NCBI GenBank assembly: GCA_937891045.1
Contig: CALBEV010000120.1
Location: forward strand, 1-49,433
From: an uncultured Burkholderiales bacterium
GTDB taxonomy: Bacteria > Pseudomonadota > Gammaproteobacteria > Burkholderiales > Burkholderiaceae
Direction: 5' to 3'
Length of the DNA: 49,433 nt
Numbering within the stretch: the first letter of the stretch is position 1; each line of letters begins with the position of its first letter. Positions 23,572-49,433 of the stretch are shown here, piece after piece. The notes below the pieces were generated by a model. That model was not told the origin of the DNA, did no database searches, and worked only from the letters and a program-made list of their open reading frames with translations. A program made the translations under genes and the position numbers.

Positions 23572-23574
23572 GGG

Positions 23575-28858: not shown

Positions 28859-28961
28859 GATGGTCTGCTTGAATGCGATGAAGCAAGTTTAGTCATAATC
28901 GTTTCAGCACAGCGGTTTGCTTTGCAAACGCATCAGGCTTTCCATCACTCTCTGCCAAGCC

Positions 28962-29759: not shown

Positions 29760-29785
29760 GGTTTCCCCTTGAACTGAAAAGCAGT

Positions 29786-29819
29786 GATAAAGTGAAAACT
29801 CAAGTTTCGATAAAAGTGA
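29786..29819 (+). promoter_or_regulatory. Direct repeat upstream of the liv operon
   Basis: GATAAAGTGA (29786-29795) recurs as GATAAAAGTGA (29809-29819), one base longer, with starts 23 bases apart, in the AT-richer 87-base leader before the permease gene. This spacing is close to two helical turns and could be a regulator site. No regulator is encoded next to it. Confidence 0.3.
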
Positions 29820-29846
29820 TATTCGAAGGAATCTTTTCGCCGCATC

Positions 29847-30722: not shown

Positions 30723-30725
30723 AGC

Positions 30726-32596: not shown

Positions 32597-32600
32597 CGCG

Positions 32601-33371
32601 ATGGACGCCTTGCTGCAACTCAACAATGTGGAAAGCGCCTATGGGCCGGTGCGCGCCATCCGCGGCGTCAGCCTGTCGGTGCTGCGCGGTCAAATTGCAG
32701 CGGTGTTGGGCTCGAATGGCGCGGGCAAAACCACCATCTTGAAAACCATTTCGGGCATCATCGATCCGCGCAAAGGCAGCATCCATTTCAAGGGCGACAA
32801 CATCACCGCCATGGACCCGGCATTGATCGTGCAGCGTGGTTTGGTGCATGTGCCCGAAGGCCGCGAGGTGTTTCCACTGTTGTCGGTGAAAGACAACCTG
32901 TTGATGGGGGCTTACACCCGGCAAGACCGCGACGCCATCGCCCGCGACATGGAATTGGTGTTTGGCTACTTCCCCATTCTGAAAGAACGTGCCCAGCAAG
33001 ACGCAGGTTTATTGTCCGGCGGACAGCAGCAAATGTTGGCCATCTCTCGCGCCCTCATGAGCGAGCCCGATTTGATTTTGTTGGACGAGCCCAGCCTTGG
33101 CCTGTCCCCCAAACTTACCCAAGAGATTTTTGAGATCGTGGTGCGCATCAACCGCGAACGCGGCACCACCATTTTGTTGGTGGAGCAAAACGCCAACATG
33201 GCTTTGAACGTGGCCGACCATGGTTTTGTTCTCGAATCGGGGCGCATCGTCATGGAAGACAGCTGCGACCGCTTGCGTGAAAAAGACGACATCAAAGAGT
33301 TTTACCTCGGCCTCAAAGAAGCGGGTGCCCGCGATGAGCGTCGTTGGAAAAAGAAAAAGACCTGGAGATGA
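32601..33371 (+). CDS. ABC transporter ATP-binding protein (LivF-like)
   Basis: 256-residue ATPase. Walker A GSNGAGKTTILKTISG, Q-loop/HVPEGREVFPLLSVKDNLLMG, canonical signature LLSGGQQQMLAISRAL, Walker B LILLDEPSLGLS, H-loop VEQNANMAL. The C-terminus carries an unusually basic tail (GARDERRWKKKKTWR) beyond the usual end near YLG. ATG 32601 lies four bases after the LivG-like stop; an open frame to 32529 lies within that gene and is not used. Confidence 0.92.
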   Translation: MDALLQLNNVESAYGPVRAIRGVSLSVLRGQIAAVLGSNGAGKTTILKTISGIIDPRKGSIHFKGDNITAMDPALIVQRGLVHVPEGREVFPLLSVKDNLLMGAYTRQDRDAIARDMELVFGYFPILKERAQQDAGLLSGGQQQMLAISRALMSEPDLILLDEPSLGLSPKLTQEIFEIVVRINRERGTTILLVEQNANMALNVADHGFVLESGRIVMEDSCDRLREKDDIKEFYLGLKEAGARDERRWKKKKTWR

Positions 33372-33372
33372 C

Positions 33373-35232: not shown

Positions 35233-35253
35233 ACATACCCACAGGAGACTGCA

Positions 35254-36414
35254 ATGAAATTGAAACTCACTTGGCTGCTGCTGGCATTGGCCAGTGCCAG
35301 CGTGTTCGCCCAACAACAAGGCGTGTCTAAAACCGAAATCACGATTGGCACCATTCAGGATTTATCGGGGCCACTGGCCAGTTATGGCAAAGCCGTGCGC
35401 AACGGCATGCAGCTTCGCATTGACGAATTGAATGAGCAGGGTAGCCTGCACGGCCGCAAGCTCAAGCTCATCACCGAGGACTCGGGCTACGACCCCAAAC
35501 GGGCGGTGTTGGCGGCGCAAAAGTTGGTCAGCCAAGACAAAATTTTCATCATGGCTGGTCACATTGGCACGGCACAAAACAACGCCGCCATGCCGGTGCA
35601 GTTTGACAAGAACATCATCAACTTCTTTCCGGTGACGGCTGCACGTGAAATGTACGAACCCTTCAACCGCTTGAAGTACGCTATTTTTGCCACCTACTTC
35701 GACCAAATGCGTGCGGCGGTTCCTGCTTTGGTGAAAGAGAAAAAAATCACCAAGGTGTGTGCCATTTACCAAGACGATGAGTTTGGTTTGGAGGTGTTTC
35801 GCGGTGCAGAGGCCGGTTTGAAAACCATCAACATGGGTTTCACTGAGAAGACCACGTTCAAACGTGGCGCCACCGATTTTTCATCCCAGGTGGCCCGCAT
35901 GAAGTCGGCCGGTTGTGAGATGGTGGTGTTGGGTACCATCATTCGCGAAACCGTGGGTACCATTGCCGAGTCGCGCAAAACCGGCTTCAACCCGCATTTC
36001 ATTGGCTCAAGCGCTGCTTACACCGACTTGATCCACAAGCTCGGTGGCAAGGCCATGGACGGCATGTACGCCACCATGACCGTACCCCATCCTTATTTGG
36101 ATGAGGCCTCCAAGCCCATCAGCTTTTGGGCCAACAAGTACAAAACCAAATTCAATGAAGACCCCACGGTGTTCTCGGTGTATGGCTACTTGATCATTGA
36201 CAACTTCATCAAAGCCGCGCAAAAGGTCGGACCCAACCTCACCACGGATAGTTTTGTCGCAGTCATGGACAACATGACTTTCCCCACCGATTTCTTTGGC
36301 AGTCCAGAGGCCAGTTTCTCTAAGACCAAGCACTTGGGCTCTAACCGCAGCCGCTTGGCCCAAATCCAAGACGGCCGCTGGAAAATCATTTCCGACTATT
36401 ACAAAATCGACTGA
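35254..36414 (+). CDS. Periplasmic substrate-binding protein of the Liv-type ABC importer
   Basis: 386 residues, Peripla_BP_6 fold. Sec signal peptide KLTWLLLALASASVFA, cut before QQQG. Features: ITIGTIQDLSGPLASYGKAVRNGM, LITEDSGYDPKRAVLAAQKLV, TKVCAIYQDDEFGLEVFRGAE and TDFSSQVARMKSAGCEMVV. An AGGAG Shine-Dalgarno precedes ATG 35254. Last gene of the operon; it should decide substrate choice, but ligand residues cannot be read by eye. Relatives in this clade often bind aromatic or aliphatic acids instead of Leu/Ile/Val. Confidence 0.92.
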   Translation: MKLKLTWLLLALASASVFAQQQGVSKTEITIGTIQDLSGPLASYGKAVRNGMQLRIDELNEQGSLHGRKLKLITEDSGYDPKRAVLAAQKLVSQDKIFIMAGHIGTAQNNAAMPVQFDKNIINFFPVTAAREMYEPFNRLKYAIFATYFDQMRAAVPALVKEKKITKVCAIYQDDEFGLEVFRGAEAGLKTINMGFTEKTTFKRGATDFSSQVARMKSAGCEMVVLGTIIRETVGTIAESRKTGFNPHFIGSSAAYTDLIHKLGGKAMDGMYATMTVPHPYLDEASKPISFWANKYKTKFNEDPTVFSVYGYLIIDNFIKAAQKVGPNLTTDSFVAVMDNMTFPTDFFGSPEASFSKTKHLGSNRSRLAQIQDGRWKIISDYYKID

Positions 36415-36462
36415 GATCACTGCTGCCCGGGCCATGGACTTGCGCCGAGCCTGGGCGGCCTG

Positions 36463-36502
36463 ATGACAATACTGTCATAAACCCTGTTAAGGGCTTGTTT
36501 TT
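36463..36502. promoter_or_regulatory. Dyad and possible weak terminator after the importer operon
   Basis: ATGACA-ATAC-TGTCAT (36463-36478) is a perfect 6-bp dyad with the look of an operator. It is followed by CCCT-GTTA-AGGG (36482-36493) and TTGTTTTTC, which could be a weak intrinsic terminator for the importer operon. Both lie upstream of a TATAAT at 36539-36544 before the small secreted-protein gene. Confidence 0.4.
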
Positions 36503-36538
36503 CATGGGTTTTTATGTAGTTTTTGGTGTTTATGCCGA

Positions 36539-36544
36539 TATAAT
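36539..36544 (+). promoter_or_regulatory. Consensus -10 element before the small secreted protein
   Basis: TATAAT lies 25 bases before ATG 36570 in an AT-rich stretch. No convincing -35 hexamer is found at 16-18 bases, so a promoter is likely but incomplete. Confidence 0.45.
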
Positions 36545-36569
36545 TGGCTTCCAACAACTTTGTTAGCCC

Positions 36570-36830
36570 ATGATGAACATCGCCAAGTGGCTCATCTTGT
36601 TTCTTTTCACCAGCCCTGTTTTTGCAGCGGATATCAGTTCTTGCACATTGAAAAAGCAGGAAGATGACAAAAATTACTGCAAAGCCTCGTTCGCGGGCAG
36701 TGCCACCTTTTGCGACTTGATCCGCAATGGCGAACGCAAGCGAGACTGCACCTTCATGGTCATTCGCATCCAGCGTGACAACTCCTACAAAGTCAAACCC
36801 TACGTGAAAGAAGCGGTCGCCACCGAATAA
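36570..36830 (+). CDS. Small secreted four-cysteine protein, unknown function
   Basis: 86 residues. The signal peptide covers residues 1-19 (WLILFLFTSPVFA, then ADIS). The mature part has exactly four cysteines (25, 37, 48, 60), each near a charged segment, suggesting two disulfide bonds in the periplasm, followed by a basic C-terminus. A second ATG directly follows the first. It has a likely promoter of its own and no partner gene: the importer is upstream and the crotonase gene is convergent. I do not recognise a family. Confidence 0.7.
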   Translation: MMNIAKWLILFLFTSPVFAADISSCTLKKQEDDKNYCKASFAGSATFCDLIRNGERKRDCTFMVIRIQRDNSYKVKPYVKEAVATE

Positions 36831-36846
36831 ACCCGATGGTCTCGAC

Positions 36847-37644
36847 TTATTTCCCCTGAAACCGGGCTGGGCGCTTTTCAATGAAGGACTGAACGCCCTC
36901 TGCCGCATCGGCACTGTTGGCCAATCGTTGCTGGGTGATGTCAAAACCAGCCCTGGCTGCCATCGGGCCTTCCTCAATGGCTTGCAGTACCGACAAGCGC
37001 GTGGCCACCACCGCCAAGGGTGCTTGTTCTGCAATCAGTTGGGCCACCCGCATCGCTTCAGCCAACTCGCTGCCCGCAGGCACCACCTTTTGCACAAAAT
37101 GCAGCCGCAAGGCTTCAGCCGCATCAAATTCATCGCCGGTCAGTAAATGCAGCATGGCGTTGCCCATGCCTGCGCGTTCGGCCATGCGCAAGGTGGCACC
37201 GCCTGTGGCCATGATGCCGCGCTTGACTTCGAGTTGCGAAAAAAGACAGTTGTCTGCAGCCACCACGATGTCGGCGGCCAACATCAACTCGATGCCCAAG
37301 GTGTAGGTGATGCCCTTGACGGCCACCACCAAGGGCTTTTGACGCCTGCGAAACCCCTTGGTGCCCAGGTTGACTGGGTCGACATCGCCCAAGGCCGCTG
37401 CATGCTCGCCGCGTTGCATGAGACCCGCGAAGCTGGGCAGGTCCAGACCCGCCGTGAAATGCTCGCCCGCCGCGCACAAGACGCCCACGCGCAAGTCGGG
37501 CGAGTCGTCCAACAAGCTGTAGGCCTTGGCCAATTGGGCGAACATGGCCGGGGTGAAACCATTGCGCTTGGCCGGGCGGTTGATGGTGATCTGCAACACC
37601 GGGCCTTGCACCAGGTGGTCAATGCGCCCGTCGGTGGCGCTCAA
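36847..37644 (-). CDS. Enoyl-CoA hydratase/isomerase family protein (crotonase)
   Basis: 265-residue crotonase. Oxyanion-hole segments are AAGEHFTAGLDLPSFA and the later FSQLEVKRGIMATGGATLRM, whose Glu aligns with the first catalytic Glu; the second catalytic Glu position looks replaced (AERAGMGNAML), so the reaction may be isomerisation or hydrolysis and not hydration. The start is TTG 37644, supported by GAGGTG five bases upstream. It overlaps the pirin stop as TTGA, so the two are translationally coupled. Confidence 0.85.
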   Translation of the reverse strand: MSATDGRIDHLVQGPVLQITINRPAKRNGFTPAMFAQLAKAYSLLDDSPDLRVGVLCAAGEHFTAGLDLPSFAGLMQRGEHAAALGDVDPVNLGTKGFRRRQKPLVVAVKGITYTLGIELMLAADIVVAADNCLFSQLEVKRGIMATGGATLRMAERAGMGNAMLHLLTGDEFDAAEALRLHFVQKVVPAGSELAEAMRVAQLIAEQAPLAVVATRLSVLQAIEEGPMAARAGFDITQQRLANSADAAEGVQSFIEKRPARFQGK

Positions 37645-38681
37645 GTCTTCACCTCGTCGGCGTCGCGCTCCTCCAAACGGCCATCGGCATGGCGGGCAAA
37701 ACGCCCGGTGTCACGCGGATGCACGGGGTCGGAAGCGCCCCAAGGCCAGCCACCAAATTCGGTGCGGCGGTAATCTTCAAAGGCTTGGTGGATTTCGGCC
37801 TGGGTGTTCATCACAAACGGGCCGTACTGCGCCACCGGTTCGCCAATCGGGCGGGCTTGCAACATCAGCAACTCCACCGCATCGCTGCCGGTGTTGTGCA
37901 GATGCAAGTCGTCTTGCGCCACCACCTCGAGCACCGAGCGCTTTGGAATGCTTTGTCCGGCGATGTTCAAAGCTTGACCAGCAAAGTAATACAGCTGCCT
38001 CTTGGTGCCAGCCTGAGCCGTGCGCGGCAAGGTCCATTGCGCACCAGCCTCTAATCGGATGGTGAAGATGGCCAAGTCGGACTGCGCTTGGCTGGCCCAA
38101 GAGTGCGGCGGAGGCGGCAAGCCTTGGGCGTCGTTCAAGCGACCCGCCACCACCAGCACCTCGGTCGCGTGGCCGTTGGCGTCCACATGGCGAACGGTGT
38201 GAATGTGCTCGCGCCAAAACATGGTGAAGTGCGGCTCGCACATCTTGTCCTTGGCAGGCAGGTTCAACCAAAGTTGAAACAGCTCGCAGGTGTTGGCTTG
38301 GTCTTGGTGGCGCAGCGGAAACATCTCGCAATGCACGATGCCTTTGCCAGCGGTGAGCCACTGCACATCGCCATCGCCAAAGCGGGCCGTGGCCCCCAAA
38401 GAGTCCGAGTGGTCAATGCGGCCTTGGCGCACGATGGTGACGGTTTCAAAGCCCCGGTGCGGATGCGATGGAAAGCCCGGAATGGTTTGGCCGTGGTACA
38501 TGCTCCAACCGTCTTTGTTGCCAAAGTCGCTGCCCATTTGCCGCCCTGCCAAGGAGGCGTTCGGCCCCATCTGGGCATTGCCTTCGGGGTAATGGTCCAG
38601 GTGGTGCACACAAAACAAAAACGGGTCCATGGTTTGCCATGGAAACGACAGGGGAGAAATTTTGAGAATGCTGGAAGACAT
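37641..38681 (-). CDS. Pirin family protein (bicupin)
   Basis: About 346 residues. The N-terminal cupin has the pirin metal motif FPSHPHRGFETVTIVRQG (His, His) with a later HCEMFP (His-x-Glu). The second half contains LYYFAGQALNIAGQ and the C-terminal YGPFVMNTQAEIHQAFEDYR, both typical. Bacterial pirins act as quercetinases or as partners of metabolic enzymes. Start is uncertain: ATG 38681 has no ribosome-binding site, while TTG 38696 has GGA eight bases upstream and adds five residues. Between the serine hydrolase and the crotonase on one transcript. Confidence 0.88.
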   Translation of the reverse strand: MSSSILKISPLSFPWQTMDPFLFCVHHLDHYPEGNAQMGPNASLAGRQMGSDFGNKDGWSMYHGQTIPGFPSHPHRGFETVTIVRQGRIDHSDSLGATARFGDGDVQWLTAGKGIVHCEMFPLRHQDQANTCELFQLWLNLPAKDKMCEPHFTMFWREHIHTVRHVDANGHATEVLVVAGRLNDAQGLPPPPHSWASQAQSDLAIFTIRLEAGAQWTLPRTAQAGTKRQLYYFAGQALNIAGQSIPKRSVLEVVAQDDLHLHNTGSDAVELLMLQARPIGEPVAQYGPFVMNTQAEIHQAFEDYRRTEFGGWPWGASDPVHPRDTGRFARHADGRLEERDADEVKT

Positions 38682-38700
38682 GGCTGAGGCTGGCAAAAAG

Positions 38701-39996
38701 TTATTCCAAGGCTTGGTAGACCAATTGTTTGATCATGCGGCGGTAGTACTGGCGAATCGGACCAGGGGTTTGCGCCATCAGCAAACCGATGACTTGTTCT
38801 TCCGGATCAATCCAGAAGAAGGTGCCACCGGCACCGGCCCAAGCGTAGTCACCTTCAGAGCCGGGCACACTGGCCAGTCCCGGGCCTTGGCGCACCATGA
38901 AGCCCAGGCCAAAGGTGTAGCCCTGCACACCCATCAGCAACTCGCCGGGCTGCAAAGGCGTGGCCACTTTGGGGCCCAAGTGGTCCGAGGTCATCAGCGC
39001 CAACGTGGTGCGGCTGATGTAGCGGCGGCCATCCAGAGTGCCGTTGTTCAACAGCATTTGGCAAAAGCGCAGGTAGTCGGCGGCGGTGGTCACAAGTCCG
39101 GCACCACCGGCGTCATTGCCTTGCACCTGGGTCAGGTCCAGCATCGGGGCCATGGGTTTTTGCGTGAGAGGGTCGATGGCCAAGGGCTGGGCGATGCGGT
39201 GCACTTGGTTGGCAGGCACCACAAACGCCGTGTCTTTCATGCCCAAGGGTTTGATCAGGCGCTCATGCAGCAAGACCCCCAAAGGTTTTTTGCCCACCAC
39301 TTCCAGCACCCGACCCAACAAGTCGGTGGACAAGCTGTATTCCCAGGTGCTGCCGGGTTGCCACTGCAAGGGCGCTTTGGCAAACGCCGCCACTTGTTGT
39401 TCGGGTGTCAACGTGATCCACAAAGAGGGCACTTCGTTGGAGAACAAACCCGCGCTGATGTAGGCATTGCGCATGGCCGCAGAGCGGGTGAACTCGGCAT
39501 AGGTCAGGCCCGAGGTGTGGCGCAGCAAATCGTGCACGAGGATGGGCCGCGCAGCAGCCACCGTGGTGCTGGCTGGGTCGGCCGGGTTGGCCAAGACCTG
39601 CATTTGCGCCAGAGCGGGCAAGAACTTGGACACCGGGTCGGCCAGTTGCAACTGGCCTTCTTCCACCATCATCATGGCCAACACCGAGGTCATGGGCTTG
39701 GTCATGGAATAGGCGCGGAAGATGGCGTCTTGCTTCACACCAATCGCGTCTGAATAGACGATGGCCCCTTTGCGGGCCACCACCACCACCGCGCCGGGCA
39801 TGTTTTTGGCATCGATTTCAGCCTGAATGACCGGGCGAATACGGGCCAAGCGCTCGGCTGAAAAACCTTTGGAAGCGGGGGAGGCTGTGGGGATGTCGGC
39901 GGCCAACAGCGGGGCGGCCAAACTCGTCAGCAGCAAGCTGCCCAAAACGGCGTGGAGGCAAGCACGGCGGCCGCTTGAGAAAGGGTTCAGGGGCAT
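38701..39996 (-). CDS. Beta-lactamase-fold serine hydrolase/esterase, exported
   Basis: 431 residues. Signal peptide ACLHAVLGSLLLTSLAAPLLAA. Nucleophile Ser97 in AYSMTKPMTSVLAMM (SxxK). The second motif is WEYSLSTDLLGRVLE, that is Tyr-Ser-Leu in place of Tyr-x-Asn, as in EstB-type family VIII esterases, and a later GGTFFWIDP. So an esterase is more likely than a beta-lactamase. GGAG six bases before ATG 39996 fixes the start; the open frame beyond it is not used. Heads the transcript with the pirin and crotonase genes. Confidence 0.87.
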   Translation of the reverse strand: MPLNPFSSGRRACLHAVLGSLLLTSLAAPLLAADIPTASPASKGFSAERLARIRPVIQAEIDAKNMPGAVVVVARKGAIVYSDAIGVKQDAIFRAYSMTKPMTSVLAMMMVEEGQLQLADPVSKFLPALAQMQVLANPADPASTTVAAARPILVHDLLRHTSGLTYAEFTRSAAMRNAYISAGLFSNEVPSLWITLTPEQQVAAFAKAPLQWQPGSTWEYSLSTDLLGRVLEVVGKKPLGVLLHERLIKPLGMKDTAFVVPANQVHRIAQPLAIDPLTQKPMAPMLDLTQVQGNDAGGAGLVTTAADYLRFCQMLLNNGTLDGRRYISRTTLALMTSDHLGPKVATPLQPGELLMGVQGYTFGLGFMVRQGPGLASVPGSEGDYAWAGAGGTFFWIDPEEQVIGLLMAQTPGPIRQYYRRMIKQLVYQALE

Positions 39997-40098
39997 GAGT
40001 CGCTCCGTAGACAGTTGGTGAAGGTTCAAAGAGGTTAGCAGATGCCGCATCCCTTAAGCTCTCAAGCTGAGCAATGAAAAAACACAATGGAGACCCTG

Positions 40099-40878
40099 AT
40101 GAAACTGAATGCAAACTTGTCGGCCATCGTCACGGGCGGGGCTTCTGGTCTGGGCGCAGCAACCGCCCGCCGTTTGGCTGGGCATGGCGTGAAAGTCGCG
40201 CTGTTTGACCTGAATGCCGAGCTGGGCGAGGCCTTGGCGAAAGAGATTGGTGGCGTGTTTTGCCAAGTGGATGTGACCAGCGAAGAGCAGGTGGACGCAG
40301 GCTTTGCCAAAGCCCGCGCGGCACTCGGGCAAGAACGCATCTTGGTGAACTGCGCCGGTACCGGCAACGCGATCAAAACCGCCAGCCGCGACAAAACCAC
40401 CGGCGAAATTCGCACGTTTCCCACCGCCAATTTCGACCGCATCATCCAAATCAATTTGGTCGGAACGTTTCGCTGTATTGCGAAATCAGCCGCTGGCATG
40501 ATGACCCTGGACATGCTGGAAGGCGAACGCGGCGCCATCGTCAACACGGCGTCCGTGGCCGCCGAAGACGGTCAAATTGGCCAGGCCAGTTACACGGCCA
40601 GCAAGGCAGGCATCGTGGGCATGACCTTGCCCATCGCCCGCGACCTCATGGGCGAGGGCATTCGGGTCAACACCATCTTGCCGGGCATCTTCAACACCCC
40701 CCTGTTGCAAGCCGCCCCCGACAACGTGAAAGAAGCCTTGGCCGCATCCGTGCCGTTTCCAAAACGCTTGGGCCAGCCCGACGAATACGCCCATTTGGCC
40801 GAGTTGCTGTTGACCAACCAGTACATGAATGGAGAGTGCATCCGCATTGACGGTGCCATCCGCATGGCTCCCCGCTGA
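40099..40878 (+). CDS. SDR-family dehydrogenase, 3-hydroxyacyl-CoA dehydrogenase type II-like
   Basis: 259-residue short-chain dehydrogenase, paralogue of the gene at 8605-9363 (shared ASVAA-DGQIGQA-Y-ASK-GIVGMTLPIARDL block). Motifs: TGGASGLGAATARRL, VNCAGTG, NTASVAAEDGQIGQASYTASKAG. GGAG six bases before ATG 40099 makes this the start; an ATG at 40087 overlaps that site. With the following thiolase and acyl-CoA ligase it forms a beta-oxidation unit, where it would oxidise a 3-hydroxyacyl-CoA. Confidence 0.88.
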   Translation: MKLNANLSAIVTGGASGLGAATARRLAGHGVKVALFDLNAELGEALAKEIGGVFCQVDVTSEEQVDAGFAKARAALGQERILVNCAGTGNAIKTASRDKTTGEIRTFPTANFDRIIQINLVGTFRCIAKSAAGMMTLDMLEGERGAIVNTASVAAEDGQIGQASYTASKAGIVGMTLPIARDLMGEGIRVNTILPGIFNTPLLQAAPDNVKEALAASVPFPKRLGQPDEYAHLAELLLTNQYMNGECIRIDGAIRMAPR

Positions 40879-40919
40879 GGGCGGGCACAATCCACCTAAA
40901 CATTGACAAAGGAAACAAG

Positions 40920-42098
40920 ATGTCTGAAGCATTCATCGTGGCCGCCACCCGCACCGCCGGTGGCAAAAGAGGCGGACGATTGTCCGGTTGGCATCCTGTG
41001 GATTTGGCCGCCCAGGTCTTGAACGATTTGCTGGACCGCACCGGTGCCGACCCCGCACTGGTGGAAGACGTGTTCATGGGCTGTGTCAGCCAGGTGGGCG
41101 AGCAGTCTACGAATGTGGCCCGCAATGCGGTGTTGGCCTCGCGCTTGCCCGAGTCGGTGCCCGGCACCTCCATCGATAGGCAATGCGGTTCCTCGCAACA
41201 AGCCATCCACTTCGCAGCGCAGGCCGTCATGTCCGGCAGCATGGATGTGGTGATTGCGGCGGGCGTGGAATCCATGACCCGCGTGCCCATGTTCAGCACC
41301 AGCTACTTGGCGCAAAAAGCCAACATGGGTTTTTACCAAAGCCCGCTGATGAACAAGCGTTACAACGACCAGGTGTTCAGCCAGTTTGTGGGCGCCGAAA
41401 TGATGGCTCAAAAATACGGCCTGAGCAAACTCGAACTCGACAGCTACGCGCTGCTCAGCCATCAACGCGCATTGGCCGCCACGCAAGCAGGTGCCTTCAA
41501 AGATGAAATCTTGCCGGTGGCCGTGCTCAACACCGAAGGCCAAGCCTCGGGCGAGATGCACACCGCCGACGAAGGCATCCGCGCCGAAGCCACGCTTGAA
41601 GGCATTCAAAGTGTGAAGTTGCTGCAAGAAGGCGGCGTCATCACTGCGGCCAATGCCAGCCAAATTTGCGACGGTGCCACCGGCGTCATGGTGGTGAACG
41701 AACGCGGTTTGAAAGCCTTGGGCGTGAAGCCTTTGGCCCGGATTCACCACATGACCATGATCGGCCACGATCCGGTCATCATGCTCGAAGCGCCGATTCC
41801 CGCCACCGAACGCGCCCTGAAAAAAGCCGGTATGAAGGTCGATGACATCGACCTGTATGAAGTGAATGAAGCCTTTGCCTCGGTGCCTTTGGCTTGGCTG
41901 AAAAGCTTGGGGGCCGACCCCGCGCGTTTGAACGTGAACGGCGGCGCGATTGCCCTGGGTCACCCGCTGGGCGCGTCAGGCACCAAGCTCATGACCACGC
42001 TGGTTCATGCCTTGGCGCAACGCGGCAAACGCTATGGCTTGCAAACCATGTGCGAAGGCGGCGGCATGGCCAACGTCACCATCATCGAACGCCTCTGA
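40920..42098 (+). CDS. Acetyl-CoA acyltransferase (thiolase)
   Basis: 392-residue thiolase cleaving 3-ketoacyl-CoA. Nucleophile Cys89 in SIDRQCGSSQQA, His348 in GGAIALGHPLGASG and the second Cys378 in TMCEGGGMAN are all present. The CEGGG form is that of FadA-like degradative thiolases. AAAGGAAAC precedes ATG 40920. It lies between the SDR and acyl-CoA ligase genes (gaps 41 and 28 bases), giving three beta-oxidation steps. Confidence 0.94.
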   Translation: MSEAFIVAATRTAGGKRGGRLSGWHPVDLAAQVLNDLLDRTGADPALVEDVFMGCVSQVGEQSTNVARNAVLASRLPESVPGTSIDRQCGSSQQAIHFAAQAVMSGSMDVVIAAGVESMTRVPMFSTSYLAQKANMGFYQSPLMNKRYNDQVFSQFVGAEMMAQKYGLSKLELDSYALLSHQRALAATQAGAFKDEILPVAVLNTEGQASGEMHTADEGIRAEATLEGIQSVKLLQEGGVITAANASQICDGATGVMVVNERGLKALGVKPLARIHHMTMIGHDPVIMLEAPIPATERALKKAGMKVDDIDLYEVNEAFASVPLAWLKSLGADPARLNVNGGAIALGHPLGASGTKLMTTLVHALAQRGKRYGLQTMCEGGGMANVTIIERL

Positions 42099-42126
42099 TT
42101 TGAGCGTTTAAACAGGAGAAATCACC

Positions 42127-43764
42127 ATGCTCGGATTGATGCAAGACCGCCCGCTGCTGATTTCATCCTTGGTCGAGCACGCTGCCACCTTCCACCCGGC
42201 CACCGAGATCGTTTCGCGCTTGCCCGAGGGCACGGTGCACCGCACCAACTGGCGTGACATGTGTTTCTTGTCACGGCAAGTGGCGCAGGCCATGCAGGTC
42301 TTGGGCGTGCAAGCCGGGGACCGGGTGGGCACACTGGCTTGGAACTCCTACCGGCATTTGTCTTTGTATTACGGCGTCTCGGGCAGCGGGGCGGTTTTGC
42401 ACACGGTCAACCCGCGTTTGTTCCCAGAGCAAATCGACTACATCATCAACCACGCCGAAGACCAGGTGCTGTTTTTCGATGTGGGCTTTGCGCCGCTGGT
42501 GGCGCAACTCGCGCCATCGCTGAAGTCGGTGAAGCACTATGTGGTGATGACCGATCGCGCCCACATGCCCGAGCTGGACTTGCCCAACCTGCATTGCTTT
42601 GACGAGCTGATGGCCGCGCAAAGCACCCGCTTCACCTGGCCCGAATTCGAGGAGCGCAGCGCTTCTTCGCTTTGTTACACCTCGGGCACCACCGGCAACC
42701 CCAAGGGCGTGCTGTATTCCCACCGTTCCACGATGTTGCACACCTTGATGGAACTCGCGCCCGACACCTTTTGCATCAGCTCTGCTGAAACCTTGCTCTT
42801 GATCGTGCCCATGTTCCATGCCAATGCCTGGGGTGCGCCGTATGCCGCCGCCATGGTCGGGGCCAAGCTGGTGTTGCCCGGACCGCACCTGGACGGCGAA
42901 AGTATTTTCAATTTGATGCTGCAAGAGCGGGTTACTTTTTCACAAGGTGTGCCCACGGTGTGGTTGATGTTGTTTCAGTACCTGGATGCGCACCCCGAGC
43001 TTGACCCGAAAAGCTTGGGCGTCAAACGCGTGGGCATTGGCGGCGCGGCGGTGGCCCGCAGCATGCTGGAGCGTTTTGAGAAGCAATTTGGCGCTGAGGT
43101 GGTGCAGGGCTGGGGCATGACCGAGACCAGCCCCATTGGCGTCATCAGCAAACTCTTGCCCAAACATGCGCAGGTGTCCGCTGAAGACTTGGTGAAAACC
43201 AAGCTCAAGCAAGGGCGAGGTGTGTGGGGCGTGGATTTGAAAATCGTTGATGAACACGGCCAAGCCCTGCCTTGGGATGGTGTGGCCTTTGGCCACTTGC
43301 ATGTGCGTGGCCCGTGGGTCACCAGCGGTTATTTCAAAAGCGAAGGCGGCCAGGTGTTGGACGCCGAAGGCTTCTTTCCCACAGGGGACGTGGCCACCAT
43401 CGACCCCGATGGCTATTTGCAACTGGTGGACCGTGCCAAAGATGTGATCAAGTCGGGGGGCGAATGGATCTCATCCATCGATGTCGAGTTGTGCGCGAAT
43501 TCACACCCCGGTGTGGCTGAATCGGCCGTCATTGGTGTGGCCCATCCCAAGTGGCAAGAGCGCCCCTTGATATTGGTGGTGCGCCGGGCAGGACCGCAGG
43601 TGAGTGCCGATGAACTGACCAGCCATTTGTCGGCACGCTTGGCCAAGTGGTGGCTGCCCGATGAGATTTTGTTTGTGGATGAATTGCCGCACACCGCCAC
43701 CGGCAAAATTTTGAAAACCAAGCTGCGCGAGCAGTACAAAAATCACCGCTTGTCTTCGATGTAA
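42127..43764 (+). CDS. AMP-forming acyl-CoA synthetase (medium/long-chain type)
   Basis: 545-residue ANL-family ligase. P-loop LCYTSGTTGNPKGVLYSH, GWGMTETSPIG, FFPTGDVATIDPDGYLQLVDRAKDVIKSGGEW and catalytic Lys in TATGKILKTKLREQ. It resembles the fatty-acyl-CoA synthetases of the AlkK/FadD3 type (early TVNPRLFPEQIDYIINHAED). AGGAG precedes ATG 42127. Supplies acyl-CoA for the thiolase/SDR unit. The 3' end overlaps the convergent membrane-protein gene by 22 bases. Confidence 0.92.
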   Translation: MLGLMQDRPLLISSLVEHAATFHPATEIVSRLPEGTVHRTNWRDMCFLSRQVAQAMQVLGVQAGDRVGTLAWNSYRHLSLYYGVSGSGAVLHTVNPRLFPEQIDYIINHAEDQVLFFDVGFAPLVAQLAPSLKSVKHYVVMTDRAHMPELDLPNLHCFDELMAAQSTRFTWPEFEERSASSLCYTSGTTGNPKGVLYSHRSTMLHTLMELAPDTFCISSAETLLLIVPMFHANAWGAPYAAAMVGAKLVLPGPHLDGESIFNLMLQERVTFSQGVPTVWLMLFQYLDAHPELDPKSLGVKRVGIGGAAVARSMLERFEKQFGAEVVQGWGMTETSPIGVISKLLPKHAQVSAEDLVKTKLKQGRGVWGVDLKIVDEHGQALPWDGVAFGHLHVRGPWVTSGYFKSEGGQVLDAEGFFPTGDVATIDPDGYLQLVDRAKDVIKSGGEWISSIDVELCANSHPGVAESAVIGVAHPKWQERPLILVVRRAGPQVSADELTSHLSARLAKWWLPDEILFVDELPHTATGKILKTKLREQYKNHRLSSM

Positions 43765-44078: not shown

Positions 44079-45398
44079 TCAGCTTGTGGTTTGGTGATTG
44101 ATCAAGTGCGCAGGCAATCTCAAAATCAACAAGGCTCCGATGATAGCCAAACCGCTGAAGATGATCAGGCTGTTTTGCGCGTTGCCGGTCAAGTCTGCAA
44201 TCCAGCCAACAGCCGCTGTGCTGACAAACCCGGCGATATTGCCGATGGAGTTGATGATGGCCAAGCCTACGGCCGCGGCGGCACCCGTTAGAAACGAGGG
44301 CGGCACACTCCAGAAAGCAGCTTGGGTGGCAGAGGCACCCGCTGCCGCCATGGTCAATGCCAGCATCGTGAACGCCAGACTGTCAAAGTGCATCCAACTC
44401 AAGATCAAACCCGCTGCTGCGACCAAGCCGGGAATGGCGGTGTGGTAGCGACGTTCTCCGCGCCGATCTGAACTCGTGTTGCAAAAGTACATGGCAAAAA
44501 TAGCCACGATGTAGGGTACTGCCGTCAGCAAGCCAATCCGCATCACATCGGTTTCACCATGTTGTTTGATCAGGGTAGGCATCCAAAAAATGGACACATA
44601 AATCGAACTTGCAATGCAGAAATAGGCGGCACTGAGTTGCCAAACCAATGGGCTTTTGAAAGCGCTGCTGGCCGATGAATGCGATTGTTTGGCATTGTTT
44701 TCACGCGCTAAATCCTCGCTGATGATCGCCTTCTCCGCATCGCTGAGCCAATGCGCTTCTTTCGGAGAATTCACCAGAATGCGGGTCACCATCAAACCCA
44801 AAATCACGGAGGGGGTGGTTTCAATCAAAAACAACCACTGCCAGCCGCTCAGACCAGCCGCATCGTCAAATTGAACCATGATGTAGCCAGACAAAGGTCC
44901 GCCCAAAATACTTGACAGGGGCAATGCCGACAAAAGCAAGGCGATGATGCGCCCACGCCAATCTGCGGGGAACCAGCAGGATAAAAAATAGAAAGCGCCA
45001 GGGATGAAACCGGCTTCGGCGACACCCAGCAAAAATCGAAGAATATAGAACTGGGTTGCGTTTTGCACAAAGGCCATCGCCCCGCCTATCAGACCCCATG
45101 TGATCATGATCCGAGCGATCCACATGCTTGCGCCCACCCTGTGCAACAACATGTTGCTGGGGACTTCAAAAATGACATAGCCTAAAAAAAAGATGCCAGC
45201 ACCGATGCCATAGACCGTGTTGCTAAAGGCCAAGTCATCCATCATTTGCAATTTGGCAAAGCCCACATTGACCCGATCGAGGTATGCCGCAACCAAGCAC
45301 AAACATAAAAAGGGCACGATGCGCCACGCGGCTTTTTTGTAGACGGCTGCGCGCTGTGTGTATTGATCGACAGCTTGCGCGTCAGAACTAACAGCCAT
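44079..45398 (-). CDS. MFS transporter, anion:cation symporter (ACS) family
   Basis: 439-residue, 12-helix major facilitator. ACS hallmarks: AAYLDRVNVGFAKLQMMDDL after helix 1, GYVIFEVPSNMLLHRVGA, RFLLGVAEAGFIPGAFYFLS and CWFPADWRGRIIALLL. Relatives carry tartrate, phthalate, 4-hydroxyphenylacetate or other organic anions. AGGAG six bases before ATG 45398 sets the start. It ends the minus-strand cassette with the PQQ dehydrogenase, Rieske protein and CoA ligase, and could import the acid product or substrate. Confidence 0.9.
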   Translation of the reverse strand: MAVSSDAQAVDQYTQRAAVYKKAAWRIVPFLCLCLVAAYLDRVNVGFAKLQMMDDLAFSNTVYGIGAGIFFLGYVIFEVPSNMLLHRVGASMWIARIMITWGLIGGAMAFVQNATQFYILRFLLGVAEAGFIPGAFYFLSCWFPADWRGRIIALLLSALPLSSILGGPLSGYIMVQFDDAAGLSGWQWLFLIETTPSVILGLMVTRILVNSPKEAHWLSDAEKAIISEDLARENNAKQSHSSASSAFKSPLVWQLSAAYFCIASSIYVSIFWMPTLIKQHGETDVMRIGLLTAVPYIVAIFAMYFCNTSSDRRGERRYHTAIPGLVAAAGLILSWMHFDSLAFTMLALTMAAAGASATQAAFWSVPPSFLTGAAAAVGLAIINSIGNIAGFVSTAAVGWIADLTGNAQNSLIIFSGLAIIGALLILRLPAHLINHQTTS

Positions 45399-45438
45399 GA
45401 AGGACTCCTGGTTTATTTGAAATTGGGAATTCATATGA

Positions 45439-45468
45439 ATCGGCCTCGCCAGGATGGACGAGGCCGAT
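45439..45468 (-). other. Perfect stem-loop between the PQQ dehydrogenase and MFS genes
   Basis: ATCGGCCTCG and CGAGGCCGAT form a perfect 10-bp stem with a 10-base loop, 22 bases after the dehydrogenase stop. There is no T-run on the transcribed strand, so partial termination or 3'-end protection of the upstream mRNA is more likely than full termination. Confidence 0.6.
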
Positions 45469-45490
45469 ATCACTCACTCAAGTCAAGACT

Positions 45491-47227
45491 TTATTTGGGG
45501 AGTTTGAACACCATCAAGGTGCCACCCTGAGGCACAACCAACTTGGTGTTGTTCAGTGTGTTGATGCCCGACTGCATACGCTCGGCATCAATACCCCAAC
45601 CCGCTTGCACTGCGATGAATTGCTCGCCATTGATTTCATAGGACGAAGGCACAGCAGTCACGCCAGAGGGCATTTTGTATTTCCAAAGGACCTTGCCATT
45701 GGCCGCATCGAAGGCGCGGAATTCACGGTCGTTGGTACCGCCCGCAAACAGCAGGTTGCCGCCTGTGGTCAAGAGTGGGGCCCAAATGGCGCGGTCGTAT
45801 TTGTAGGACCATGCCAATTTACCTGTCTCCAGGTTCCAGGCCTGCAACTCACCAATACTTTTTGGTTTTTTGCCACCTTCGTAGCGCAAACTGCCCAACA
45901 CGCCATCGATCGGGTAACCAATGTAGAGATCCCCTTTTTTGTATACGGAGGCCTCTGCTGCTGGCAACTCAGAGCACAGGTGGTTGTTGGCAGGGATGTA
46001 GAACAGCTTGGTTTTGGGACTCCATGCTTCTGGCGGCCAGTCTTTGCCACCCCACAAGGAGGGACAGAAGGTGACAGCTTTGCCCATACCAGGCTTTTTG
46101 CTCATGTCATAGGTAGGACGACCCGTTTTTTTGTCGATGCTTTTGAACACATCGTTGTAGACATAAGGAACACCGTTGACATAGTCGATCTTGCCGCTGG
46201 CTTGACGCTCCAGCATCCAAAGGTAGCCATTGCGACCTGCGTGCACGGCACCCTTGACATTGCGACCGTTGATTTTGGTGTCTATCAGCACAGGTGCGCT
46301 GACCTCATCCCAATCCCATGCGTCGTTTTGGTGGTACTGATGATGGCCCTTGATCTTGCCGGTGTCCAGATCCACAGCAATGGTGGAGGTGGTGTAGAGA
46401 TTGTCACCATCACGGCCTTCTGTGGGCCAGGGCGCAGGGTTGCCCGTGCCCCAATAAGCGATATTGGTTGCAGGGTCGTATGTGCCTGTGATCCAGACGC
46501 TGCCACCACCATTTTTGTGGCTGTCGCCGGGCCATGTATGCCCGCCAGGTTCACCGGGGGCCGCTGTGGTGTAGGTGCGCCAGACTTCTTTGCCCGAGTT
46601 GGCATCAAAAGCGGCCACGTAGCCACGCACACCGGTTTCGCCACCGGAGGAACCCACCAGAATTTTGCCTTTGGCGGCCAAGGGTGCAAGGGTGATGTAG
46701 TGCAATGCCTTCACATCGCCAACGGTCGTGTCCCAAACCACTTTGCCAGTTTTGGCGTCCAAGGCAATCAGGTGCGCGTCAACAGTGCCCACATAAACCT
46801 TGTCGCCATACAGTGCGACACCACGGTTGGTGTTGTGCAGCATCAGCAAGTCAGCGGGGATTTCTTTTTTGTAGCGCCAGAGTTCTTCACCCGTGATGGC
46901 ATTCAAAGCAATCACCTGACCATTGGGGGTGGTGATGTACATGTAGCCATTGTTCACAATGGGAGGGGCTTGGTGACCCTCGGTTGTACCTGTTGCAAAG
47001 GACCAGGCCAATTCAAGTTTTTTCACATTGCCTGTGTTGATTTTTTCCAGCGGACTGTAGCCCCAACCTTGGTAGTTGCCTCGGTACATCAGCCAATTCT
47101 TGGCTTCTGGATTGATCAGCCTGGCATCGGTCACGGGTTCGTAGGGGCCAAGCTTGGTGTCGGCATGCGCCATGATGGCACAAGCACCGATCACTGCGAT
47201 GGACAGCTTCTTTATCAAATGACTCAT
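45491..47227 (-). CDS. PQQ-dependent alcohol dehydrogenase, soluble periplasmic, with lanthanide-type active site
   Basis: 578-residue eight-bladed quinoprotein without a haem c domain. Signal peptide 1-22 (ends AHA, then DTK). Tryptophan-docking repeats such as ALNAITGEELWRY and AFDANSGKEVWRTY recur. Metal/PQQ residues by alignment from memory to methanol dehydrogenase: Glu197 (GGETGVRG), Asn263 (GTGNPAPW), catalytic Asp305. Two residues on is Asp307 (AWDWDE), the extra Asp of lanthanide enzymes; calcium enzymes have Ala or Ser. The vicinal Cys pair expected before NRG is Met129-Leu130. AGGAG precedes ATG 47227. Substrate unknown; the neighbours suggest an alcohol whose acid becomes a CoA ester. 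Confidence 0.92.
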   Translation of the reverse strand: MSHLIKKLSIAVIGACAIMAHADTKLGPYEPVTDARLINPEAKNWLMYRGNYQGWGYSPLEKINTGNVKKLELAWSFATGTTEGHQAPPIVNNGYMYITTPNGQVIALNAITGEELWRYKKEIPADLLMLHNTNRGVALYGDKVYVGTVDAHLIALDAKTGKVVWDTTVGDVKALHYITLAPLAAKGKILVGSSGGETGVRGYVAAFDANSGKEVWRTYTTAAPGEPGGHTWPGDSHKNGGGSVWITGTYDPATNIAYWGTGNPAPWPTEGRDGDNLYTTSTIAVDLDTGKIKGHHQYHQNDAWDWDEVSAPVLIDTKINGRNVKGAVHAGRNGYLWMLERQASGKIDYVNGVPYVYNDVFKSIDKKTGRPTYDMSKKPGMGKAVTFCPSLWGGKDWPPEAWSPKTKLFYIPANNHLCSELPAAEASVYKKGDLYIGYPIDGVLGSLRYEGGKKPKSIGELQAWNLETGKLAWSYKYDRAIWAPLLTTGGNLLFAGGTNDREFRAFDAANGKVLWKYKMPSGVTAVPSSYEINGEQFIAVQAGWGIDAERMQSGINTLNNTKLVVPQGGTLMVFKLPK

Positions 47228-47250
47228 GGTTTTTCTCCTGAAAGTGAGTC
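47221..47250 (-). promoter_or_regulatory. Possible hairpin enclosing the PQQ dehydrogenase ribosome-binding site
   Basis: In the transcript GACTCA (47250-47245) can pair with TGAGTC (47226-47221), which overlaps the ATG. The 18-base loop holds the AGGAG. A 6-bp stem is modest, so control of translation is only a possibility. Confidence 0.3.
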
Positions 47251-47258
47251 TTGGAAAT

Positions 47259-47281
47259 AACCAGGCTTAGGAGCCCTGGTT
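47259..47281 (-). other. Hairpin over the Rieske gene stop codon
   Basis: AACCAGG and CCTGGTT pair perfectly (7 bp, 9-base loop) across the Rieske TAA. No T-run; probably a processing or stability element between the Rieske and dehydrogenase cistrons. Confidence 0.4.
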
Positions 47282-47854
47282 GGCGGGGGAACTGGGTGCA
47301 ATCGCAAGAAATTCACCTTCAAGCTTCAAGCTGAAACTGGGCAAAGGCCGAGAGGCGGGCCCATCAACGACTTTGGCGCCATCCAGCAGATCGAACTTGG
47401 AGGCATGGCAAAAGCAGACCAAGACTTTTTCCTTGGAGATCCAGGTTTTGACATCACAGGCCTGATGGGTGCAAAGTGCTGAATAAGCCAAAACACCATC
47501 TACTGAACGGGCCTTGGTGGCCGTGGCCATTTGGTCCTCTGGCAAGCGAATCACCACCAATTTGTTGGCGCGTGATGTATTTTTCGGTTCACCTGTTTTG
47601 GTATCGAATGGATAAACAAGCATGGGTTTGCCAATGGCCAGATCGCTTGGCCGCAAGGGTTTGAAATTCGATTCAGCATCGGCATCGACCAACAGCATGG
47701 GTGCGGTATCGGCAGCCATTGCGGCAGCACCCATGAAAGGCAGCGTGGACAAACCCATCGACACCCATTGGATGGCTTGGCGGCGCTCTGGGTCAAAGGC
47801 TTGGTCGTTGAGCGCACAGCCGCAGCAAGAAGAAGAGGAGCTAACGTTTTTCAT
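47267..47854 (-). CDS. Exported Rieske [2Fe-2S] protein
   Basis: 195 residues. Cluster ligands are complete: Cys128-Thr-His130-Gln-Ala-Cys133 and Cys147-Phe-Cys149-His150, where 128/130/147/150 hold the cluster and 133-149 form the disulfide, as in high-potential bc1-type Rieske domains. The N-terminus has a Ser/Cys cluster (SSSSCCGCALND), then ERRQAIQWVSMGLSTLPF, a Tat-like twin-Arg signal or anchor, as expected for a cofactor-loaded export. Not part of a bc1 operon: it lies 39 bases before the PQQ dehydrogenase, so it may accept that enzyme's electrons. Confidence 0.88.
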   Translation of the reverse strand: MKNVSSSSSCCGCALNDQAFDPERRQAIQWVSMGLSTLPFMGAAAMAADTAPMLLVDADAESNFKPLRPSDLAIGKPMLVYPFDTKTGEPKNTSRANKLVVIRLPEDQMATATKARSVDGVLAYSALCTHQACDVKTWISKEKVLVCFCHASKFDLLDGAKVVDGPASRPLPSFSLKLEGEFLAIAPSSPANQGS

Positions 47855-47900
47855 GTTGATCGTGGTGATGGAGTGGTGTTTTGAGAGAAGTGAAAGGGGA

Positions 47901-49433
47901 TCAGTTGGTGGCGGTTTCAGTCAGACGCGGCGCCAATAAATCCCGCAAGCGGCGGTGCACAATTTTTCCGGTGGCGGTGCGCGGCATGTCTTCGGCACTG
48001 ATGAATTCAATCTGGCGCGGCTGTTTGAAGCCTGCCAAATGCTCTTTGCACCATTGCTTCAAGTTGTCGGCGCTGCAGTCTTGGCCAGGTTTGGTCACCA
48101 CCACGGCCAACACGGTCTCGCCCCATTTCTCATGCGGGACGCCAATCACGGCAGCCTCTTGCACCGCAAGGTGGGCGCACAACACGGCTTCCACTTCGGA
48201 GGGGTAGATGTTTTCACCACCGCTGATGATCATGTTGCTTTTGCGGTCCATCAGCCAGATGAAGCCATCGGCGTCGCGCATGGCCATGTCACCTACCGAG
48301 CACCAAGCATCTGCAAAAGCCTCAGCGGTTTTTTCGGGCGATCCCCAATAGCCTTCAAAGGCATAAGAGGTGCAGGAGTACAACTCGCCCACCTCACCAT
48401 CGGGCACCTCTTGACGCTGCGTATCCAACAATTTGATCGGACCACTGCCGACCCATTCGCGGCCCACCGAACCCAGCTTGCGAAGTTGTTCGTCGGGACG
48501 CAACAAAGTGACCCAACCGGCTTCGGTGGAACCGTACAACTCGTAGAGCTGGCCATTGGGAAACATGTGTTGAATGGCGCGTTTCAAGCTGGCATTGGCA
48601 GGCGCTGAAGAAACCAACAAGCGGCCCACGCTTTGGGTAGCGTATTGTTTTTTCACCTCCTCCGGCAAGGCCAGCATCATGATGTAGTGCGTGGGCACCA
48701 TGGACGTGAACGTGATCTGGTGTTTGGACAACAGCATCAGCAAATGCTCTGGGTCAAAACTGGCGTGGTCGTCGACCACGATGCAGGCACCCAAGTGGAT
48801 GAAGGTGTTGGCAAAGTACAAAGAATTGGCATGGCACAAGGGCATGACCAACAAGGCTTTGTCGTTCACCGTGAAGCCCATGTCCAGTGCCGTGGCATAG
48901 GCCATCAAGGTGCTGGCCTCGTGGCTGCGGATCGCGCCCTTGGGTTTGCCGGTGGTGCCCGAGGTGTACATCAGGGCGCAGGTTCGTTTCGGGTCCACCC
49001 GAGGCCAATGGGTGCGTACCGTGGCGTGTTGAATCAGCGCCTCATAGTCGATCCAGCCTGCTTCGGTGGGGTCGTCCATTTGCACACAAGCTTTCAGCGG
49101 CAAGCTGCCCGTGATGGGCAGCACCTTGTCTTGCAAGGAATGGGCACAAACCAAGGCGTTCACTTGAGCGTCTTTCAGGATGTAGGCCAGTTCGTCGCTG
49201 ACCAAGCGGAAGTTCAGGGGCAGGGCCACCAGACCTGCGCGGGCTAAGGCGACATACAACTCCAGCCACTCAATGCGGTTGTAGGCCAGCACGGCCACCC
49301 GTTCACCTGCTTGCAAACCATGTTCTAGCAGTCCACTGGCCAAAGCGCTGGCCCGCTGGTTCCATGCGCGGTAGCTCAGTTGGCGTTGGCTGTCACACGC
49401 GCCGATGTGGTTGGGCCGCAACCGCGCATGGGT
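47901..49433 (-). CDS. AMP-forming acyl-CoA synthetase (5' end outside window)
   Basis: At least 510 residues; the frame runs open through the window edge and the start is not visible, with about 20 residues expected missing. ANL motifs: ALMYTSGTTGKPKGAIRSH, YELYGSTEAGWVTLL, SVGDMAMRDADGFIWLMDRKSNMIISGGENIYPSE and catalytic Lys in PRTATGKIVHRRLRD. It resembles fatty-acid or aryl-acid CoA ligases; substrate unknown. First visible gene of the cassette with the Rieske protein (46-base gap), PQQ dehydrogenase and MFS transporter. Confidence 0.9.
   Translation of the reverse strand, partial: THARLRPNHIGACDSQRQLSYRAWNQRASALASGLLEHGLQAGERVAVLAYNRIEWLELYVALARAGLVALPLNFRLVSDELAYILKDAQVNALVCAHSLQDKVLPITGSLPLKACVQMDDPTEAGWIDYEALIQHATVRTHWPRVDPKRTCALMYTSGTTGKPKGAIRSHEASTLMAYATALDMGFTVNDKALLVMPLCHANSLYFANTFIHLGACIVVDDHASFDPEHLLMLLSKHQITFTSMVPTHYIMMLALPEEVKKQYATQSVGRLLVSSAPANASLKRAIQHMFPNGQLYELYGSTEAGWVTLLRPDEQLRKLGSVGREWVGSGPIKLLDTQRQEVPDGEVGELYSCTSYAFEGYWGSPEKTAEAFADAWCSVGDMAMRDADGFIWLMDRKSNMIISGGENIYPSEVEAVLCAHLAVQEAAVIGVPHEKWGETVLAVVVTKPGQDCSADNLKQWCKEHLAGFKQPRQIEFISAEDMPRTATGKIVHRRLRDLLAPRLTETATN

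Follow-up and report, generated by a model that had tools for sequence, protein, structure and literature searches.

To our knowledge, the soluble quinoprotein alcohol dehydrogenases are coupled to c-type cytochromes. Several of these cytochromes are dedicated partners (XoxG, PedF and MxaG), and PedH, a lanthanide-dependent pyrroloquinoline quinone (PQQ) alcohol dehydrogenase of P. putida (6zcv/6zcw), uses a cytochrome c partner. For methanol dehydrogenase, a disulfide is reportedly needed for electron transfer to the cytochrome. AioB offers a different type of carrier, an exported Rieske protein that relays electrons from a periplasmic oxidoreductase. Here we describe a locus on a contig of an uncultured Burkholderiales bacterium (CALBEV010000120.1; the window is the whole analysed stretch of 49,433 nucleotides), in which a gene for a soluble PQQ dehydrogenase adjoins one for a Rieske [2Fe-2S] protein. 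On the basis of sequence, we think it probable that the two form a periplasmic alcohol-oxidising module, in which the dehydrogenase would pass electrons to a high-potential Rieske protein of its own. As the initial annotation of this stretch had noted, four collinear genes encode a CoA ligase, the Rieske protein, the dehydrogenase and a major facilitator superfamily (MFS) transporter; all four are on the minus strand. The features of the central pair are as follows.

45491 to 47227, minus strand: soluble type I PQQ dehydrogenase, 578 amino acids (TIGR03075, 569 bits, cut-off 480.05); N-terminal signal judged by eye, no heme motif
46820 to 46849, minus strand: LLMLHNTNRG, where many other PQQ alcohol dehydrogenases have the vicinal Cys-Cys; no Cys here
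46307 to 46318, minus strand: WDWD, with the catalytic D305 and, two residues further, D307 (lanthanide-type pattern)
47228 to 47266, minus strand: gap of 39 bases between the Rieske and dehydrogenase genes, containing a CAGGAG ribosome-binding site
47267 to 47854, minus strand: exported-type Rieske [2Fe-2S] protein, 195 amino acids (PF00355, 37.2 bits, cut-off 20.3)
47705 to 47854, minus strand: N-terminal 50 residues of the Rieske protein, with a twin Arg (R24-R25, ERRQAI) and a hydrophobic stretch; by eye a Tat-type signal or anchor
47456 to 47473, minus strand: Rieske box I, CTHQAC (C128, H130, C133)
47399 to 47416, minus strand: Rieske box II, CFCHAS (C147, H150, C149)

Genes in the window and in unannotated loci were called by our own scoring of open reading frames (ORFs), heme c was scored as a CxxCH motif, and signals were judged by eye.

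The window dehydrogenase is 35-37% identical to PedH, but has no vicinal Cys-Cys and has a Rieske gene as its neighbour. The plan of two genes, for a dehydrogenase and a carrier, and the apparently lanthanide-type site recall XoxF-XoxG (methanol dehydrogenase and cytochrome cL), except that the carrier in the present pair is a [2Fe-2S] protein. AioAB likewise has an exported Rieske protein beside an oxidoreductase. However, AioA is a molybdenum enzyme whereas the present partner is a quinoprotein.

The pair is conserved, a point that the initial annotation had proposed to check. Querying species genomes with the Rieske protein returned six loci, all six with the dehydrogenase gene directly downstream. 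In a set drawn from the order of G001 (the Burkholderiales metagenome-assembled genome that contains locus L001), the Rieske gene was present in 12 of 399 genomes at an E-value of 1e-20 or better; the dehydrogenase gene was adjacent in 11, and in the other a contig end intervened. In a set from the phylum of G001, an alignment search found the Rieske gene in 12 of 398 genomes, with the dehydrogenase adjacent in every one; the two sets share one Rieske genome. Twelve plasmid records also matched the Rieske query, of which nine were examined (H8, H10 and H12 were left out). Seven contain the pair (Azoarcus, Roseomonas, three Paracoccus, Methylobacterium and Alteromonas), and two, from Meiothermus and Microbacterium, have a Rieske match with no dehydrogenase beside it, the Microbacterium match lying in a respiratory-chain neighbourhood. 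Taken together (the window, 6 loci from the first search, 11 from the order set, 11 from new phylum-set genomes and 7 plasmids), the genes are adjacent and on the same strand in 35 of 36 loci, the remaining locus stopping at a contig edge, or in 35 of 38 if the two pairless plasmids are counted. The pairing is therefore far beyond chance. Its hosts (among them Burkholderiales, Azoarcus, Roseomonas, Paracoccus, Methylobacterium and Alteromonas) span the Alpha-, Beta- and Gammaproteobacteria, and two gene orders occur, with the dehydrogenase first in five loci. The patchy occurrence of the pair in both genome sets, and its presence on plasmids in the seven named records, would fit a Rieske protein that serves as a regulatory redox sensor or is a passenger, retained through transfer of a gene block. 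Yet the pairing holds down to about 45% dehydrogenase identity, in three proteobacterial classes and both gene orders, while other neighbours change, and the cluster ligands of the Rieske protein are invariant across our alignment (A1); we regard a sensor or passenger as very improbable.

The conserved unit is this pair and not a four-gene cassette. Here the initial annotation stood in part: the Rieske-dehydrogenase core is kept, but the ligase and MFS genes vary between loci, the ligase gene lying on the opposite strand in L002, L003 and L005.

Searches with the dehydrogenase drew the same boundary. The order set gave matches in 11 of 399 genomes at an E-value of 1e-120; the 10 with at least 50% identity are all in Rieske genomes, and the dehydrogenase of G090 (46% identity) has the CC motif and no Rieske match. 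From the phylum set, 17 of 398 genomes gave 19 matching places at 1e-110. The 12 with at least 47% identity are the same as the 12 Rieske neighbours, and for the next seven (40-44%) none of 16 query rows gave a Rieske match at an E-value of 0.01. The 34 full-length paired enzymes form one clade in a tree of 50 dehydrogenases (support 100/100), which held in a quick tree of 57 to which the seven unpaired phylum-set enzymes were added (SH-aLRT 100). In both trees long branches were flagged among the unpaired rows. Six rows shorter than 500 amino acids were excluded from tree building; fragments (G005, G006:C68) and weak matches were also left out of the unpaired controls. Distance matrices of the Rieske proteins and the dehydrogenases correlate with r of 0.85, a value reached in none of 2000 permutations.

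The initial annotation had read the Rieske gene as taking the place of a cytochrome gene, and the surroundings of the dehydrogenases bear this out. Of 14 unpaired paralogues (from pair genomes G001-G004, G006 and G022, plus G090), 8 have a cytochrome c ORF on the same strand no more than 100 bases away, and none of these 14 loci has a Rieske match. Similarly, all seven unpaired phylum-set dehydrogenases of 40-44% identity have the CC motif, and six have a same-strand CxxCH frame at most 103 bases away or overlapping. Around the pair, no single-heme cytochrome gene was found within 1 kb of the Rieske gene in the 35 loci scanned (L040 was outside the scan). In agreement with the initial annotation, none of the called genes of the 49-kb window has a CxxCH motif, the stretch past its right edge (49433) being outside these data. 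In L001, the nearest relative, the region matching that stretch holds a divergent 2-hydroxyacyl-CoA lyase gene and a GntR gene and no cytochrome gene. The cytochrome gene that was to be looked for beyond the edge is likewise missing upstream of the pair in L001, L003, L004 and L005 as far as these loci reach (flanks are short in L002, L005, L006 and L038).

In seven phylum-set genomes a cytochrome c gene does lie 7-9 kb from the pair, and in six of them (L079, L080 and L083-L086) it adjoins a second, unpaired PQQ dehydrogenase gene, about 8 kb from the pair, in what resembles a xoxF locus. A cytochrome and a Rieske partner thus coexist in one neighbourhood, each beside its own dehydrogenase. 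In L085, where the Cys-Cys region is covered, the second enzyme has CC. In L079, the next gene of this xoxF-like locus resembles, as judged by eye, a gene for a glutathione-dependent formaldehyde dehydrogenase.

An alternative is that the paired dehydrogenase still reduces an ordinary cytochrome c encoded elsewhere, the Rieske protein serving some other step, for example by accepting electrons from an aldehyde-oxidising molybdenum enzyme. Indeed, molybdenum hydroxylase genes lie near 10 of the 35 pairs (L003, L045 and L079-L086), and 6 of the 14 unpaired PQQ dehydrogenases also have no cytochrome gene within 100 bases. However, in the other 25 loci the Rieske gene adjoins the dehydrogenase gene with no molybdenum hydroxylase gene as far as the loci reach, and the Rieske gene marks a single dehydrogenase clade. 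We therefore consider this alternative unlikely.

The clade boundary coincides with a change in the dehydrogenase itself, which the initial annotation did not mention. At the site of the vicinal cysteines the paired enzymes read (L/P/M/F)-H-x-T-(N/S)-R-G, with CC in none of 34 and the His (H131) in all. Of the unpaired relatives, 20 of 24 have the two cysteines (13 of 17 in the first set, counted after 5 of 22 rows that did not cover the region were dropped, and 7 of 7 from the phylum set), so the motif is common among type I PQQ alcohol dehydrogenases and not a strict requirement. The residues that we take to form the metal and catalytic site (Glu, Asn and Asp; E197, N263 and D305) are kept in all 34 paired enzymes. 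Another point new to this analysis is the Asp two residues after the catalytic one (D307), the mark of lanthanide enzymes: WDWD occurs in 24 of the 34, the window enzyme among them, and WDWA in 10. By this Asp, the window dehydrogenase appears to have a lanthanide-type active site. The best 120 of 6250 dehydrogenase homologues all lack CC and all have WDWD. An 'empty' quinoprotein was considered and rejected, as TIGR04528 scored 386 bits against a cut-off of 650 and the site residues are intact. The single-chain model of the dehydrogenase has weak stretches (pLDDT below 50 at 302-304).

The high-potential type that the initial annotation had assigned to the Rieske protein agrees with its boxes, both of which are present in the window protein together with both extra cysteines. 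We take C128, H130, C147 and H150 to be cluster ligands and C133 and C149 to be the disulfide cysteines. Indeed, CxHxxC and CxCHx(S/T) boxes with both extra cysteines, the pattern of the high-potential (bc1/AioB) type, occur in 34 of 34 paired Rieske proteins. The twin Arg is conserved in at least 90% of alignment A1, and the protein is predicted to be exported to the periplasm. Its single-chain model is confident over residues 61 to 180 (pLDDT 86-97 per 10-residue block) and falls below 50 over residues 1-49. The nearest PDB sequences, 3fou and 1nyk, are both Rieske proteins (E-values about 2e-25; 1nyk 2.2e-25), and 1nyk, from Thermus thermophilus, is also the closest fold (2.3e-15, 36% identity), with AioB (1g8k_B) also near at 2.9e-7. 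The PDB name of 3fou is of the quinol-cytochrome c reductase type, whereas the window protein neighbours a PQQ dehydrogenase.

The nearest characterised relatives are of the bc1 type, which raises the question of whether the protein is part of a cytochrome bc1 variant or a complex of that kind. However, no cytochrome b gene is annotated beside the six annotated plasmid pairs (other loci are only partly annotated), and such a complex seems to us scarcely credible. As a candidate bc1 subunit the protein was rejected on family scores (TIGR01416, 27.4 against 97.4 bits; NF050121, 90.5 against 275 bits), as it was as AioB, the arsenite oxidase small subunit (TIGR02694, 35.5 bits against 95.65).

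The likeness to AioB bears on how the two proteins might meet. The Rieske protein could be a bound subunit of the dehydrogenase that relays electrons internally, as AioB does, which would be a form of the mechanism that we favour and not its opposite. The strict same-strand pairing, the 39-base gap in the window and the place of AioB among the nearest folds speak for this. On the other side, gene order varies and no fusion of the two proteins was seen among the best 120 of the 6250 dehydrogenases, although neither observation excludes a complex. We hold a bound subunit to be possible, at a little under an even chance.

From the observed pairing, clade boundary and residues, and with no linked simple cytochrome in the stretches covered, we infer a mechanism in which electron transfer and its direction, the onward acceptor, the substrate and export are the conjectural parts. 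The PQQ dehydrogenase, with a lanthanide-type site in the window, would oxidise an alcohol, a primary alcohol or a 1,2-diol being the probable substrate. Reduced PQQ would then give up electrons one at a time to the Rieske partner. That protein would pass them on to some general acceptor in the periplasm, for instance a pool cytochrome c, and so fill the job done elsewhere by a dedicated cytochrome c. It is rather likely, in our view, that a branch of the quinoproteins exchanged cytochrome c for an exported Rieske protein as the direct acceptor from PQQ, losing the vicinal disulfide, and that such a module is undescribed. The initial annotation, right on the composition of the locus, is probably right on the role of the Rieske protein too. 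It knew of no described system of this composition, and we found no description of a Rieske-PQQ dehydrogenase pairing in the open-licence PMC literature, which does not prove absence. In the portions available of PMC11102522, PMC5023235 and PMC10715153, mentions of Rieske proteins concern other proteins.

Several observations weigh against this interpretation. The correlation of the distance matrices may reflect shared ancestry, and the pair arose and CC was lost on one branch, so that the 34 paired enzymes are not independent. CC is also missing from 4 of the 24 unpaired relatives, and the six unpaired paralogues with no cytochrome c ORF within 100 bases, mentioned above, count here as well. 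Genes for heme proteins do occur near some pairs: in L048 and L077 a diheme CCP/MauG-type gene fused to FG-GAP is 0.5 kb away from the Rieske gene, and DHOR genes lie near the pair in L032 (1.0 kb from the Rieske gene) and in L001, where the diheme DHOR gene comes after the MFS gene and starts 1.5 kb downstream from the dehydrogenase gene. Among 28 pair genomes, 22 have pqqE above its cut-off and six do not (G002 and G005, of 1.6 and 2.1 Mb; G132, G137, G269 and G399, of 3.5-5.5 Mb), which could be explained by incomplete assembly or PQQ uptake. Finally, the window, which ends inside the ligase gene, has no gene for the 2-hydroxyacyl-CoA lyase that enters into the route proposed below.

The pairing suggests an undescribed route for electrons from alcohols into respiration. 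If true, a Rieske carrier of this kind would stand as a second solution beside c-type cytochromes and as a heme-free partner for dehydrogenases of the lanthanide or calcium type, with implications for what the vicinal disulfide does in electron transfer. Database names that some of these proteins bear, 'alcohol dehydrogenase (cytochrome c)' for example, would then be corrected.

The finding also offers a handle on alcohol or diol catabolism through 2-hydroxyacyl-CoA lyases in Burkholderiales. In the window, the accessory features are as follows.

47901 to 49433, minus strand: AMP-forming acyl-CoA ligase (PF00501/PF13193; AMP-binding 258 bits), its 5' end past the window edge
44079 to 45398 with the probable ATG start (44079 to 45473 with GTG), minus strand: MFS transporter (PF07690, 151 bits)
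45439 to 45468, minus strand: hairpin with a 10-bp stem and no T run, between the dehydrogenase and MFS genes, found by eye

The gaps are 46 bases between the ligase and Rieske genes, 39 in the pair, and 17 from the dehydrogenase gene to the GTG of the MFS gene (92 to the ATG). By inspection the GTG is doubtful and the ATG at 45398, behind a CAGGAG, is the more likely start. The transporter lies near the galactonate/HpaX anion groups (TIGR00893, 313 bits, below the cut-off of 395), and the ligase possibly activates a 2-hydroxyacid.

A 2-hydroxyacyl-CoA lyase gene lies in 8 of 35 loci (L001, L003, L004, L005, L030, L031, L033 and L044), among them all the near relatives of the window with enough flank (the first four). 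In those four and in L044 it stands beside a relative of the window ligase gene. The L001 lyase scores 787 bits with NF058623 (cut-off 600), and 7pt1 is the structure nearest to it (E-value 2.1e-177). Genome-wide, the first search and the order draw together supplied 17 pair genomes, 15 of them with a lyase over the cut-off; the 11 pair genomes of the phylum draw have none, and in G566 the match is split and falls short of the cut-off. In a 300-genome order draw 25 genomes have a lyase, 9 of them pair genomes, which leaves 16 of at least 288 others, all 16 belonging to the 399 genomes of the order set. Compared with these, 10 of 12 order-drawn pair genomes have the lyase (Fisher p 8e-9 to 2e-10, uncorrected for kinship).

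Because of these eight loci we recast the route from alcohol to acid to acyl-CoA that the initial annotation had put forward. Its general course is kept, and it is better read as leading from an alcohol or 1,2-diol through a 2-hydroxyacid to a 2-hydroxyacyl-CoA and lyase cleavage. The aldehyde would be oxidised by a locus-specific enzyme, which in many relatives is an NAD aldehyde dehydrogenase or a molybdenum hydroxylase. By tblastn, 8 of 35 loci have an aldehyde dehydrogenase gene near the pair (L006, L035, L044, L046, L049, L050, L077 and L087), as does L048 by annotation, and the Azoarcus locus adds aldehyde dehydrogenase and formate dehydrogenase genes. In the lineage of the window, the 2-hydroxyacid would be imported by the MFS transporter and activated by the ligase, and its CoA ester probably cut by a lyase to formyl-CoA and a carbonyl compound. 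Since the near relatives add a GntR regulator and the lyase, such a diol route is plausible. Where a locus has no lyase gene, it must serve a different route. A parallel is the GntR-lyase-ligase-MpdC-MpdB cluster of Actinomycetospora chiangmaiensis, reported in PMC7176365 as converting 2-methylpropane-1,2-diol through 2-hydroxyisobutyrate to acetone and formyl-CoA. It too brings together GntR, a lyase of the same family (7pt1), a CoA ligase and an alcohol dehydrogenase. By analogy, the Rieske-PQQ dehydrogenase pair may carry out the alcohol step, unlike MpdB, which is listed there as reducing NAD(P)+. The window ligase is also the longer, with at least 506 amino acids against the 465 given.

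Small exported proteins follow the pair in some loci, of 181-211 amino acids in L002-L005 and about 136-153 in L046, L048-L050 and L077, alike inside each size group and unlike between groups. They came up in the search for a conserved third partner, and the copies scanned (L002, L046 and L048) had no Pfam match. The exported-looking protein of 181-211 amino acids (L002, 2606-3151; also downstream of the dehydrogenase gene in L003, L004 and L005) has an HECAH motif, and its L002 copy gave no Pfam or NCBIfam match; in the window no such protein follows the dehydrogenase. TonB-dependent receptor genes near the pair in L003 (2650-5001) and L039 (3702-6074) possibly serve metal uptake. The CCP/MauG protein of Alteromonas macleodii (L048, 7902-11222) and that of its relative (L077, 10037-13303) have about 1100 amino acids, and a Pfam scan of the L048 copy gave a CCP/MauG diheme part with FG-GAP and UnbV/ASPIC repeats.

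Elsewhere in the window, a DUF1501 gene adjoins a DUF1800 gene (22393-25395), a common and uncharacterised couple. A second catabolic block (28917-43764) adjoins the four genes and contains, by Pfam, FAA-hydrolase-type, AMP-ligase, periplasmic-binding-protein, pirin, enoyl-CoA hydratase and short-chain dehydrogenase/reductase genes, and, by eye, permease-, ATPase- and thiolase-like genes.

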